DNA of 64,000 nucleotides from Bacteroidota bacterium (GTDB lineage Bacteria > Bacteroidota > Bacteroidia > UKL13-3), in NCBI GenBank assembly GCA_947464275.1, contig CANHVU010000017.1, positions 1 to 64,000 on the forward strand, read 5' to 3'. Shown piece after piece: positions 21,093 through 25,251 of the stretch. A program made the translations under genes and the position numbers. Every line of letters begins with the position of its first letter. Position 1 is the stretch's first letter. The notes beneath the pieces were generated by a model that searched no databases, was not told where the DNA came from, and saw only the letters and a list, made by a program, of their open reading frames with translations.

Positions 21093-21452
21093 GAGAGAAG
21101 CATAAGTCGGCTAATAGCAAATTTACAAATAGTAAGTTCTATGCTCCGCAGATACATCACAAACAATTTATTGACACTTTCTATAATTATCTCTAGAGCT
21201 AACCACTTATAGAAAATATTGCAAACACTTCCAATATTAGATACTTCCCCCAATAAGTAAAATATATAAGAATTATAAATTATTATATAAGTTTCATGCT
21301 ACCAATTTTGAGCATTTTTGCATGAAACAAAACAAAAAAATTGAAAGGAAGCCATGATTGTAATTTCAGGCATTTATTGATTATGGGTTTATTTTACAGC
21401 ATTTTTTTCCATTTCAACCATTATACATTTACAAAAGCATGTATATTGAATT
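21093..21452. other. Gene-free stretch after cassette gene 4
   Basis: The first part (GCTAATAGCAAATTTACAAA ... CTATGCTCCGCAGATACATC) resembles the left part of spacer D and looks like one more cassette end. The rest holds a 9-bp inverted repeat GTTTCATGC / GCATGAAAC (21291-21299 and 21320-21328) and the presumed promoter region of the polyketide operon. I see no gene. Confidence 0.5.
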
Positions 21453-21479
21453 ATGATAGAAGTGGTTAAGTTTGTACTC

Positions 21480-22370
21480 ATGAAATCCAAAATAAAAAAA
21501 ACGGTAGTTAAAAACACTGTTCAATTACTTCGTATTCCATTTTCATTGTTGTTGATGCCTTTATTTATTCTTGCACTTAGTCAGAATGCAATAAATGGAT
21601 ATACAGCCATGGTTAGTTTTATCATTATTCATTTGTTAGTTTATCCTGCTAGCAATGGTTATAACAGTTATATAGACAAAGACGAAAGCAGTATTGGAGG
21701 AATTGAAAAACCTCCAATGCCAACTATTCATTTGTTTTATGTTACCATAGTTTTAGATTTTTTAGCCATTATTTTAGCATTTTTATTAGTAAATATACTT
21801 TTTTCATTATGCATCCTTATTTATATTTTGGCTTCGAGGGCTTATAGTTCCAAACAAATTCGTTTAAAAAAATATCCAATCATTGGATTTTTAATCGTAG
21901 TTATTTTTCAAGGTGGATTTACTTATATGATGAGTGTAATAGGTATAACAAATGAATCGTTTGCTTTTTCAAGTGCTAATATTTTATTGGTGTTTGCATG
22001 TAGTTTTCAAATTGCAGGTGCTTATCCATTAACACAAATTTATCAGCATGAGGCCGATTTAGCAGATGGTGTAAAAACCTTAAGTTATCAATTAGGATAT
22101 AAAGGCACTTTTATTTTTACTGCTGTAATGTTTGGTATATGTAATGTGTTTTATTATTTGTATTTTGAACAAATTGGAAAGTCAAATAATTTTTATTTGA
22201 TACAACTTTTTTTTATTCCAATTGTTGTTTACTTCGTATGGTGGTTTTTTAAAACCATCAATAACGAAAAAGAAGCTAATTTTAAAAATACCATGCGAAT
22301 GAATTTAATAGCCGCTATTTGCATGAATACTTGTTTTATTATTTTATACTTAACCAACCGTTTATTTTGA
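21480..22370 (+). CDS. UbiA family prenyltransferase
   Basis: From the ATG at 21480 the protein has 296 residues (an in-frame ATG at 21453 would add nine). It has eight or nine membrane spans. The first Asp-rich prenyl-diphosphate motif is seen as YNSYIDKDES (N-x3-D-x-D-like) and the second region as YQHEADLADGVKTLSYQLG. UbiA enzymes attach or reduce isoprenoid chains on aromatic acceptors in the inner membrane. It is the first of four overlapping genes with a type III polyketide synthase, methyltransferase and flavoprotein, so the acceptor is probably the aromatic made by the synthase. Confidence 0.85.
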   Translation: MKSKIKKTVVKNTVQLLRIPFSLLLMPLFILALSQNAINGYTAMVSFIIIHLLVYPASNGYNSYIDKDESSIGGIEKPPMPTIHLFYVTIVLDFLAIILAFLLVNILFSLCILIYILASRAYSSKQIRLKKYPIIGFLIVVIFQGGFTYMMSVIGITNESFAFSSANILLVFACSFQIAGAYPLTQIYQHEADLADGVKTLSYQLGYKGTFIFTAVMFGICNVFYYLYFEQIGKSNNFYLIQLFFIPIVVYFVWWFFKTINNEKEANFKNTMRMNLIAAICMNTCFIILYLTNRLF

Positions 22371-23455
22371 GTTACCTATCAGCAATTGAAACAGCAGTTC
22401 CCCAATACCGATATCATCAAAATGATTTGGCTGAATTTTTCCAAAATACGGCAGAGGATATTTCCATAAAACGTAAAATGAAAATGGTGGCCCATAAATC
22501 AGGCATTCAAACACGTTATTCCGTGTTAGCTGATTTTGGCAATTTGCCTGATGCCTTTACTTTTTTTGAAAAAAATTGGGATTTATCTCCATCTGTTTCA
22601 TTAACCAAACGAATGGAAATTTATAAAATAAATGCTTTGCAACTCTCTATTGCGGCCATTCAAAAGATTGCAAACTTTGAATCCATTAAAAGTTCCATTA
22701 CCCATATTATAACGGTGACATGTACAGGACTTTTTGCTCCCGGTTTGGATATAGAGTTAATCCAAGCACTGAATTTAAATCCGAAAACCCAACGAAGTAG
22801 TATTAATTTTATGGGTTGCAATGCAGCAATTATTGCCTTGAACCAAGCCAATTCTATTTGCAATAGCCAACCCAATGCAAAAGTATTAATAGTTTGTACA
22901 GAGTTGTGTACCATTCATATTCAAAACAGTTTTACCGATGATTATTTGCTTTCTAACTCCTTGTTTAGTGATGGAAGTGCAGCAGCAATTGTGAGTTCAA
23001 AACCTCAAAATTTGCCTGAATATCCCGACTTGGCCATTACTTCATTTGATTCCTTAATTATTCATGAAGGCCAAAATGATATGGCTTGGCAACTTTCTGA
23101 ATATGGTTTTTTGATGAGTTTATCGGCTTATATTTCTAATTTAATCAATGGAAATATTTCAAAAATGTTGAGTGATTTAAACATTCAAAAAGAAAGTATA
23201 AACTTTTGGGCCATACACCCTGGAGGTAAAAAAATTCTGGATGATTTTGCAAAGGTGTTTGATTTTAAAAACAATGAATTGGTATCGGCTTATCATGTTT
23301 TAAAGAATTATGGAAATATGTCTTCACCAACCATATTGTTTGTATTGAAAGAATTGATAGAGAATAATGAAAAGAAGAAAAGTGGAGATACTATATTCAC
23401 TGCAGCTTTTGGACCAGGTTTAACCATTGAAACCATGCAATTGGCTTATGTTTAA
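22367..23455 (+). CDS. Type III polyketide synthase
   Basis: A chalcone/stilbene synthase-like protein. I take the TTG at 22367, which overlaps the TGA of the UbiA gene (TTGA) and gives 362 residues starting fMSYLSAIETAVPQY, typical of the family; the longer frame is out-of-frame coding of UbiA. The Cys-His-Asn catalytic triad is C119 (TVTCTGLFAPG), H284 (WAIHPGGKK) and N317 (NYGNMSSPT). Such enzymes condense an acyl-CoA starter with malonyl-CoA units to pyrones, resorcinols or resorcylic acids. With its neighbours it resembles the srsABC arrangement for alkylresorcinol ethers and quinones. Confidence 0.92.
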   Translation: MSYLSAIETAVPQYRYHQNDLAEFFQNTAEDISIKRKMKMVAHKSGIQTRYSVLADFGNLPDAFTFFEKNWDLSPSVSLTKRMEIYKINALQLSIAAIQKIANFESIKSSITHIITVTCTGLFAPGLDIELIQALNLNPKTQRSSINFMGCNAAIIALNQANSICNSQPNAKVLIVCTELCTIHIQNSFTDDYLLSNSLFSDGSAAAIVSSKPQNLPEYPDLAITSFDSLIIHEGQNDMAWQLSEYGFLMSLSAYISNLINGNISKMLSDLNIQKESINFWAIHPGGKKILDDFAKVFDFKNNELVSAYHVLKNYGNMSSPTILFVLKELIENNEKKKSGDTIFTAAFGPGLTIETMQLAYV

Positions 23456-24134
23456 AAATAGAAGTGAGCAAAAAGAATTATTAGATGCGGAGGTTATTCC
23501 TGATGCTGATTTGTTCCAGAATTTAAGGGAATTGCATGTCATTAATTCATTATTAGGTGGATATCAAATTTCACTAAATGCGCTTAAAAAAATTGATTTA
23601 AAAAACCAAACTTATACCCTAGTTGATATAGGAAGTGGGGGAGGAGATACTCTGAAAACTATCTTTAAATGGGCTCAAAAAAACAAAACCGATTTGAAGT
23701 TATTTGGCATTGATTTAAAAAGTACTTGCGTAAATTATGCTAATCTAAATGAACCTAATCCATCACTGAGTTTTATTTGTGATGATTATAGAAATATTCA
23801 TTTGCATGTGAATGAAGTATCTATTATTCATGGCAGTTTATTTTGCCATCATCTTACATCTTCTCAAATCATTGAATTGATTCAATTTGCTATAAAACAT
23901 AAAGCCATTCTAATCATAAACGATTTAGAAAGAAATAGATTAGCCTATTATGCTATTAAATACCTTACAAAGGTTTTTTCAAAATCTTATTTAGTAAAAA
24001 ATGATGCACCCTTATCTGTTTTGCGTGGCTTCAAAAAAACGGAATGGATTGAAATGATTCAGCAAGCAGGTGCAAAAAATTATTCAGTAAAAAACAAATG
24101 GGCATTTAGACACGAAGTAATTGTTTATGAATAA
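23448..24134 (+). CDS. SAM-dependent methyltransferase of the polyketide operon
   Basis: The ATG at 23448 overlaps the end of the synthase gene and gives 228 residues. The SAM-binding motif I is VDIGSGGGDTLKTIF, followed by an acidic strand-end LFGIDLK and a motif resembling FICDDYRNIH. No signal peptide. In comparable type III PKS operons the methyltransferase O-methylates the resorcinol or hydroquinone ring; that role is inferred here. It overlaps the downstream flavoprotein gene by 8 bp. Confidence 0.85.
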   Translation: MFKNRSEQKELLDAEVIPDADLFQNLRELHVINSLLGGYQISLNALKKIDLKNQTYTLVDIGSGGGDTLKTIFKWAQKNKTDLKLFGIDLKSTCVNYANLNEPNPSLSFICDDYRNIHLHVNEVSIIHGSLFCHHLTSSQIIELIQFAIKHKAILIINDLERNRLAYYAIKYLTKVFSKSYLVKNDAPLSVLRGFKKTEWIEMIQQAGAKNYSVKNKWAFRHEVIVYE

Positions 24135-25251
24135 TCAATCCTCTAAATATGATTGTGCCATTATTGGTGGTGGTTTGGCTGGACTAACCTTATCCATTCA
24201 ATTAGCGCAAAATGGTCATCAAGTTATATTATTTGAAAAAAATAAATATCCATTCCATAAAGTTTGTGGTGAGTATATTTCATTAGAAAGTTGGGATTTT
24301 TTAAACAGTTTAGGATTGCCAATGGCAGATTTATCCTTGCCAATTATTAATACCATTCATGTTTCTGCACTAAACGGGTTTATCATTCAATCTCCTTTAG
24401 ACTTAGGAGGATTTGGCATTAGCCGATTTTCTTTGGATGATTTATTGTTCAAAAAAGCGAAAGAATTAGGTGTTACAGTTTTAGATAATACCAAGGTTTT
24501 GGATGTTAAACAACATGGTGAATTATATGAGGTTTATACAAATTCAGATAGTTACCAATCAAAATTAGTTTGTGGTAGTTTTGGAAAAATTAACCCACCA
24601 TTTATAGCACAACAAAAGGTAACTGAAAAAGGTAAATACATTGGTGTGAAATACCATATCAAAACTGATTTACCTGCTCATATTATTGAATTGCATAATT
24701 TTAAAGATGGTTATTGTGGCATCTCAAAAGTTGATAATGATACTTATTGCTTATGTTATTTAACTACTTCTAAAAATTTACGATTGCATCAAAATGACAT
24801 CAAACGTATGGAAGAAAATATTTTATATGAAAATCCATATTTAAAAAAGTACTTTACTGAATCAACCTTTTTATATGAAAAACCATTAGTCATCAGTCAA
24901 ATAAGTTTTGAAAAAAAGCATACTTACCAACATGGAATAATTATGCTAGGAGACTCCGCTGGAGCCATTGCACCATTGTGTGGAAACGGCATGAGCATTG
25001 CCATGCGTTCCTCTAAAATATTGGCAAAACATATTGATTTGTTTTTAAAAAATAATATTTCGAAGACAGTATTAATCCAGAATTATACCAATGAATGGAA
25101 CCAAAATTTTTCTTCTAGAATTAAAATTGCCTATTACTTGCAACACTTATTTGGGAAAAAAACCACCACTTATTGGAGTTTAAAATTATTAAAACACTCT
25201 CCTAAAATATTCAAGCAAATTATTTCCTTAACTCATGGTCAAAAATTTTAA
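24127..25251 (+). CDS. FAD-dependent oxidoreductase, geranylgeranyl-reductase-like
   Basis: From the ATG at 24127, 374 residues. The dinucleotide-binding motif is CAIIGGGLAGLTLSIQLAQN, followed by VILFEKNKYPFHKVCGEYIS, whose CGE resembles the geranylgeranyl reductase group, and the second FAD motif MLGDSAGAIAPLCGNGMSIA. Related enzymes either hydroxylate aromatic rings or reduce isoprenoid double bonds. Here either ring oxidation to a quinone or saturation of a UbiA-attached chain would fit. Last gene of the operon. Confidence 0.87.
   Translation: MNNQSSKYDCAIIGGGLAGLTLSIQLAQNGHQVILFEKNKYPFHKVCGEYISLESWDFLNSLGLPMADLSLPIINTIHVSALNGFIIQSPLDLGGFGISRFSLDDLLFKKAKELGVTVLDNTKVLDVKQHGELYEVYTNSDSYQSKLVCGSFGKINPPFIAQQKVTEKGKYIGVKYHIKTDLPAHIIELHNFKDGYCGISKVDNDTYCLCYLTTSKNLRLHQNDIKRMEENILYENPYLKKYFTESTFLYEKPLVISQISFEKKHTYQHGIIMLGDSAGAIAPLCGNGMSIAMRSSKILAKHIDLFLKNNISKTVLIQNYTNEWNQNFSSRIKIAYYLQHLFGKKTTTYWSLKLLKHSPKIFKQIISLTHGQKF

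Follow-up and report, generated by a model that had tools for sequence, protein, structure and literature searches.

We report a compact operon of four overlapping genes from a Bacteroidota bacterium of the GTDB lineage UKL13-3, located in a 64,000-nucleotide window (positions 1 to 64,000 of contig CANHVU010000017.1, assembly GCA_947464275.1). The genes encode a UbiA-superfamily protein, a type III polyketide synthase (PKS), a methyltransferase and a flavoprotein, and on balance we regard it as probable that together they form a four-enzyme pathway to a small meroterpenoid, namely a prenylated phenolic lipid associated with the membrane. The type III PKS would condense an acyl starter, probably a fatty acyl-CoA, with malonyl-CoA to a resorcinol- or phloroglucinol-type aromatic polyketide, onto which the UbiA protein, working in the membrane, would transfer an isoprenoid supplied as its diphosphate. 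The methyltransferase would methylate the ring or a hydroxyl group, and the flavoprotein would oxidize the ring by hydroxylation to a hydroquinone or quinone. Like these reactions, the starter unit, the isoprenoid length, the choice between C- and O-prenylation and the order of the steps are matters of prediction.

A conserved operon of overlapping genes

The four open reading frames (ORFs) are all open on the forward strand (Table 1). The UbiA and PKS genes overlap by 4 bp (TTGA), with the UbiA stop codon TGA at 22368-22370 and the PKS start codon TTG at 22367-22369, and the two following overlaps are 8 bp each (23448-23455 and 24127-24134). This verifies the overlapping arrangement and the synthase start inside the UbiA stop that an earlier note on this DNA had described. 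An alternative UbiA start codon, ATG at 21453, is present; the start at 21480 is preferred by the family alignment. Judging from the ORF list and the sequence, no regulator gene adjoins the operon in this host. The G+C content of the operon (30.2%) shows no useful difference from that of its flanks (33.2% and 30.6%), and composition is therefore uninformative on transfer.

Table 1. Coordinates of the operon and its upstream region in the window.
Feature	Position	Strand	Remarks
UbiA-superfamily membrane prenyltransferase (putative)	21480..22370	+	296 aa; PF01040 72 bits
Type III polyketide synthase	22367..23455	+	362 aa; TTG start; PF00195/PF02797
Class I S-adenosylmethionine (SAM)-dependent methyltransferase	23448..24134	+	228 aa; weak Methyltransf_25
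FAD-dependent oxidoreductase, group A flavoprotein fold	24127..25251	+	374 aa; GG-red-SF 90 bits, under cut-off
Intergenic stretch upstream of UbiA	21093..21479	.	must hold promoter; from ORF list and sequence

A search of a named genome collection with the flavoprotein yielded 80 loci, 64 of which carry UbiA, PKS, methyltransferase and flavoprotein genes consecutively, nine UbiA-PKS fusions counted in. Taxa with the four-gene set include Dyadobacter, Ferruginibacter, Sediminibacterium, Terrimonas and Saprospiraceae. Same-strand neighbours in these relatives overlap or are separated by at most 20 bp in 77 of 80 UbiA-PKS pairs, 84 of 91 PKS-methyltransferase pairs and 83 of 91 methyltransferase-flavoprotein pairs, where start codons were assigned mechanically and overlap lengths are approximate. 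Some families carry the same genes in another order, or UbiA on the opposite strand. That this gene order recurs, and with tight spacing, confirms that the four-gene operon is real and not a product of chance, and bears out the view that its genes make up a single pathway unit.

Co-occurrence points in the same direction. Among 64 genomes of the host's family, 31 encode both PKS (E<1e-60) and UbiA (E<1e-55), none the PKS alone, one UbiA alone and 32 neither (Fisher p 3.6e-17, a value that ignores shared ancestry). The presence of PKS and flavoprotein is concordant in 61 of these 64 genomes, and two of the three exceptions are genomes that are only 65-70% complete. Across a 392-genome sample of the phylum, the PKS clade occurs in about 110 genomes (E<=1e-49) and UbiA of the operon type in 26, all 26 of which also encode the PKS (E<1e-70) and the flavoprotein (E<1e-80). 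UbiA thus implies the presence of the others, and not the reverse. Where the flavoprotein, with or without the methyltransferase, lies apart from a PKS, a PKS is found elsewhere in 11 of 12 such genomes. Searches of viral contigs revealed no relative, and a plasmid search with UbiA gave no match and hence no agq-like UbiA for comparison.

Predicted functions of the four enzymes

The PKS matches both Chal_sti_synt domains (PF00195 102 bits, PF02797 84 bits; cut-off 27), and its catalytic triad Cys151-His284-Asn317 is present in 118 of 118 homologues. Among solved structures, its profile lies closest to those of Steely1, PKS18, a Mycobacterium marinum PKS and an Ectocarpus PKS, all ranking above plant enzymes, and a fold search agrees on the last three as near matches. 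In a tree of 46 rows, it falls in a group (98/98) with PKS18, the M. marinum and Ectocarpus PKSs and the PKSs of gene trios that combine PKS, methyltransferase and flavin adenine dinucleotide (FAD) enzyme. DpgA, PhlD, a THN-like enzyme and plant 2-pyrone synthase lie outside this group, several of them on long branches. A phylogeny of the synthase had been named beforehand as a check, and it came out as anticipated, with the PKS among fatty-acyl type III PKSs and apart from DpgA, PhlD and THN-type enzymes. The placement favours an acyl starter, short of proof; the Ectocarpus enzyme (4b0n), which we take to be a phloroglucinol synthase, is an imperfect lipid reference in this grouping. Residues W241 and M250 align to the CHS pocket positions G256 and F265 and were not used, since characterised bacterial references are lacking.

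An alternative in which the PKS uses only malonyl-CoA strikes us as unlikely: the PKS would then form a small aromatic such as phloroglucinol or dihydroxyphenylacetate, and UbiA would add a long polyprenyl chain, giving a redox lipid of the quinone kind comparable to ubiquinone or tocopherol. Such a product would agree with DpgA being what the PKS matches best in NCBIfam, with 4b0n as a near structural match, and with the resemblance of the UbiA and flavoprotein families to chlorophyll/tocopherol-type enzymes, but the tree sets the PKS with PKS18, the M. marinum PKSs and the trios, away from DpgA, PhlD and THN-like enzymes.

The flavoprotein had been assigned a geranylgeranyl reductase-like role in the earlier note, which did not withstand closer comparison. 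Geranylgeranyl reductases carry the motif YxWxFP, and flavin halogenases carry WxWxIP. In the operon's family this place is taken by a conserved GYCGIS, with Gly195, Tyr196 and Gly198 in 97 of 97 homologues. Membership of the geranylgeranyl reductases was rejected on this motif and on a score under the cut-off (GG-red-SF TIGR02032, 89.6 bits versus 158.8), and membership of the flavin-dependent halogenases was rejected because the aligned WxWxIP position holds GYCGIS, the likeness being one of fold only. The nearest folds to the flavoprotein model (pLDDT 88.9) are the halogenases Bmp2, FasV and PltA, followed by monooxygenases and, lower, a geranylgeranyl reductase; halogenases and monooxygenases also outrank geranylgeranyl reductases in sequence comparison. 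The flavoprotein looks like a monooxygenase or halogenase. Members of the same family (38-43% identity) stand beside PKSs in genomes without operon-type UbiA. At one such locus (L136), the order FAD enzyme, methyltransferase and PKS is followed by dehydratase-like, KAS-like, ACP-like and PPTase-like genes, which suggests a dedicated acyl-carrier type III PKS cluster. Because the same flavoprotein family occurs in this cluster without operon-type UbiA, the polyketide ring is the more likely target of the flavoprotein.

Should the flavoprotein nevertheless be a true geranylgeranyl reductase, it would saturate the chain attached by UbiA and yield a dihydro- or perhydro-prenyl lipid. The geranylgeranyl reductase superfamily is its best NCBIfam match, and the product of the agq genes of Actinoplanes bears a dihydrogeranyl group. 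Set against the replaced motif, the order of the matches and the occurrence of the family in genomes without operon-type UbiA, we regard this as quite improbable.

A Novosphingobium plasmid (L252) carries a set of ACP, KAS, PKS and FAD genes similar to that of L136, and on a Hymenobacter plasmid (L240) a 41% identical flavoprotein, with no PKS nearby, adjoins an isonitrile synthase and a TauD dioxygenase. At four loci (L038, L043, L044, L062) the operon is lengthened by SDR and flavin reductase genes, with a DPRP photolyase-related gene in three of the four and a divergent response regulator and TPR histidine kinase upstream. The SDR and flavin reductase are compatible with a reduced-flavin partner for the flavoprotein.

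The methyltransferase is of the class I Rossmann type and shows no match to ICMT (PF04140). Its family matches are Methyltransf_25, at 25 bits just below the cut-off of 27, and NF004851/PRK06202, at 121 bits versus a cut-off of 243. A separate pair of PKS and ICMT genes exists in Bacteroidota: at five loci of other members of the phylum (L058, L060, L133, L134, L137), a divergent type III PKS lies beside an ICMT-family methyltransferase, an arrangement that resembles Bacillus/srs-type pairs.

The UbiA protein matches PF01040 at 72 bits (cut-off 34.2) and is the fourth UbiA of the genome. Two paralogues, CyoE and MenA, score over their curated cut-offs and lie elsewhere in the genome, and a third, GGGP-geranylgeranyltransferase-like and under the cut-off, lies on another contig. 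A housekeeping role, which the earlier note had named as counting against its reading, was rejected on this basis, in support of a UbiA dedicated to the pathway. Assignment to EboC/Ubi-297 was also rejected, as UbiA has no NF035940 match and the surrounding ORF list contains no ebo-like genes. In an alignment with 4OD4 and the paralogues, the metal site departs from the classic Asp-rich motifs N-D-xx-D-xxx-D and D-xxx-D, with N-S-xx-D-x-D and Q-H-xx-D in their place; 4OD4 too has Asn at the first motif position, which leaves only part of the substitutions unusual. The family motifs, N62-S63-x-x-D66-x-D68 and T-Q-x-Y-Q189-H190-x-x-D193, are invariant at nearly all positions among 91 homologues: S63, D66, D68, Q189 and D193 occur in all 91, and His190 is near-invariant. 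Since membership of the fold stands and the classic motif does not, we limit our claim to a distinct subfamily of the UbiA superfamily with predicted prenyltransferase activity.

The altered Asp motifs would also suit a UbiA homologue that merely docks the PKS at the membrane without prenyl transfer, the product then being an unprenylated methylated alkylquinone as in the srs, hid or Myxococcus pathways. A UbiA-PKS fusion in Dyadobacter and the gene trios of Deinococcus, Psychrobacter and Roseomonas, which have no adjacent UbiA, fit such a role. A pure dock, however, would need none of the (near-)invariant residues D66, D68, D193, Asn62, R128 and K130, which are conserved as in a catalyst, and this makes the docking explanation very improbable.

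Several points weigh against a prenylated phenolic lipid. Product and activities are predictions, and genes to supply the starter or the isoprenoid are absent from the operon. In NCBIfam the PKS matches DpgA best, at a score far below the cut-off. Ser and Gln replace two Asp in the UbiA metal motifs, and the usual chemistry with prenyl diphosphates can therefore not be taken for granted. Finally, the flavoprotein and methyltransferase families also accompany PKSs without operon-type UbiA and so do not by themselves indicate prenylation. Taken together with the evidence above, a prenylated phenolic product, as the earlier note had expected, nonetheless remains what we judge to be the best reading.

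Gene fusion in Dyadobacter and probable pathway replacement in the host

In nine Dyadobacter genomes (L146, L148, L152, L153, L156, L159, L164, L165, L175), UbiA and PKS form a single ORF of about 652 aa, with UbiA at residues 6-290 and PKS at residues 292-652. The predicted fusion proteins correspond to ordinary open frames in their assemblies, several from type or named isolates. The fused proteins form one clade (95), and D. koreensis (L151), sister to the fused group in the tree, keeps UbiA and PKS separate, a topology with one origin which suggests that the fusion arose once. In the structural model of the fusion (pTM 0.73), both domains have a mean pLDDT of 94.2 and the UbiA domain is all-helical, as a polytopic membrane protein. 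The Dyadobacter cluster adjoins carotenoid-type genes, recognised by reading the sequences without a family search. No report of a UbiA-PKS pair or fusion in Bacteroidota was found in the part of the literature covered.

A bolder and rather doubtful interpretation is that UbiA and PKS work as a single, channelled prenyl-polyketide synthase anchored in the membrane, the rebuilt metal site of which serves a changed acceptor or donor, giving rise to a class of lipid so far undescribed from Bacteroidota. The change may, for example, concern prenylation of the nascent polyketide or of oxygen. The fusion itself would be a natural case of a covalent link between a polyketide synthase and a prenyltransferase of the membrane.

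The pathway also appears to have been exchanged as a unit. Most genomes of the host's genus carry a UbiA-PKS pair next to a gene for a response regulator, and their flavoprotein gene lies at another place. At the corresponding host site (L235:8519-8838, G000:C44), the pair is absent between the response regulator and an esterase-like gene, and the gap measures 319 bp versus 2272 and 2239 bp in genomes of the same genus. The flanking genes are still adjacent (response regulator 95% and next gene 91% identical to those of congeners), and the first 102 bp of the host gap match congener sequence at 91%. The sister genome G036 (L243) shows the same short gap without the pair. The host's compact operon sits away from this empty site, its UbiA and PKS are only 42-47% identical to the congeners' version, and its sequences group with Saprospiraceae, Sediminibacterium and Dyadobacter in the tree. 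Given the synteny at this site and the tree placement, the original pathway was probably replaced as a unit by a horizontally acquired compact operon. In another genome (L245, G009:C30), UbiA still stands beside the response regulator, and PKS and flavoprotein were not found in the genome; this UbiA is possibly a decaying remnant of the pathway.

Elsewhere in the window, on the reverse strand somewhere between about 31100 and 40000, two adjacent 196-aa ORFs belong to the same family and likely represent a tandem duplication.

Comparison with known pathways

The earlier note had likened the operon to srsABC of Streptomyces griseus. The two share the logic of PKS, methyltransferase and flavoprotein, but srsABC has no UbiA, and its methyltransferase SrsB, of the ICMT type, differs from the class I Rossmann enzyme found here; with no PF04140 match, membership of srsABC was rejected. 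In gene trios on plasmids of Deinococcus radiodurans, Roseomonas and Psychrobacter, the PKS is 34-40% and the methyltransferase 27-30% identical to ours, and UbiA is not adjacent. The D. radiodurans flavoprotein matches another, PHBH-like type (c16) at 37% and that of the host operon at just 20%. Plants combine type III PKSs with UbiA prenyltransferases in the pathways to cannabinoids and hop acids, where a membrane UbiA likewise prenylates a polyketide aromatic; the gene cluster is unrelated, and no membership is claimed.

We consider agqABCD of Actinoplanes missouriensis (Awakawa 2011, as cited in PMC10896814, PMC4044012, PMC3569393 and PMC7692728), which the earlier note passed over, to be the closest precedent, and the Bacteroidota operon would work in a similar way. 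According to these papers, AgqA forms alkylresorcinols, which are then prenylated by a membrane O-prenyltransferase of the UbiA kind and hydroxylated, giving 6-alkyl-4-O-dihydrogeranyl-2-methoxyhydroquinones (PMC10896814, PMC3569393, PMC4044012). That cluster already unites a type III PKS with methylation and hydroxylation steps and with a UbiA-like prenyltransferase of the membrane; the hydroxylase role of the flavoprotein in the Bacteroidota operon is a predicted one. The agq genes belong to an actinomycete, a member of another phylum, and the likeness is drawn from the described steps. The UbiA motif, the UbiA-PKS overlap and the fusion of Bacteroidota are not reported in the agq literature examined. 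The cyanobacterial hidABC operon (hierridins) and a Planctomycetota operon also combine methyltransferase, FAD oxidoreductase and type III PKS and yield alkylresorcinol products, but lack UbiA and have the PKS gene last (PMC10896814). The role of the oxidoreductase is unsettled in those two operons as well.

A pathway of this kind has been described from a single actinomycete; the Bacteroidota family has an atypical UbiA metal site and, in Dyadobacter, the fusion. The Bacteroidota pathway spans several families of the phylum, and the literature searched assigns it no product. As the natural UbiA-PKS fusion occurs in named Dyadobacter strains that are in culture, the pathway can be tested directly.

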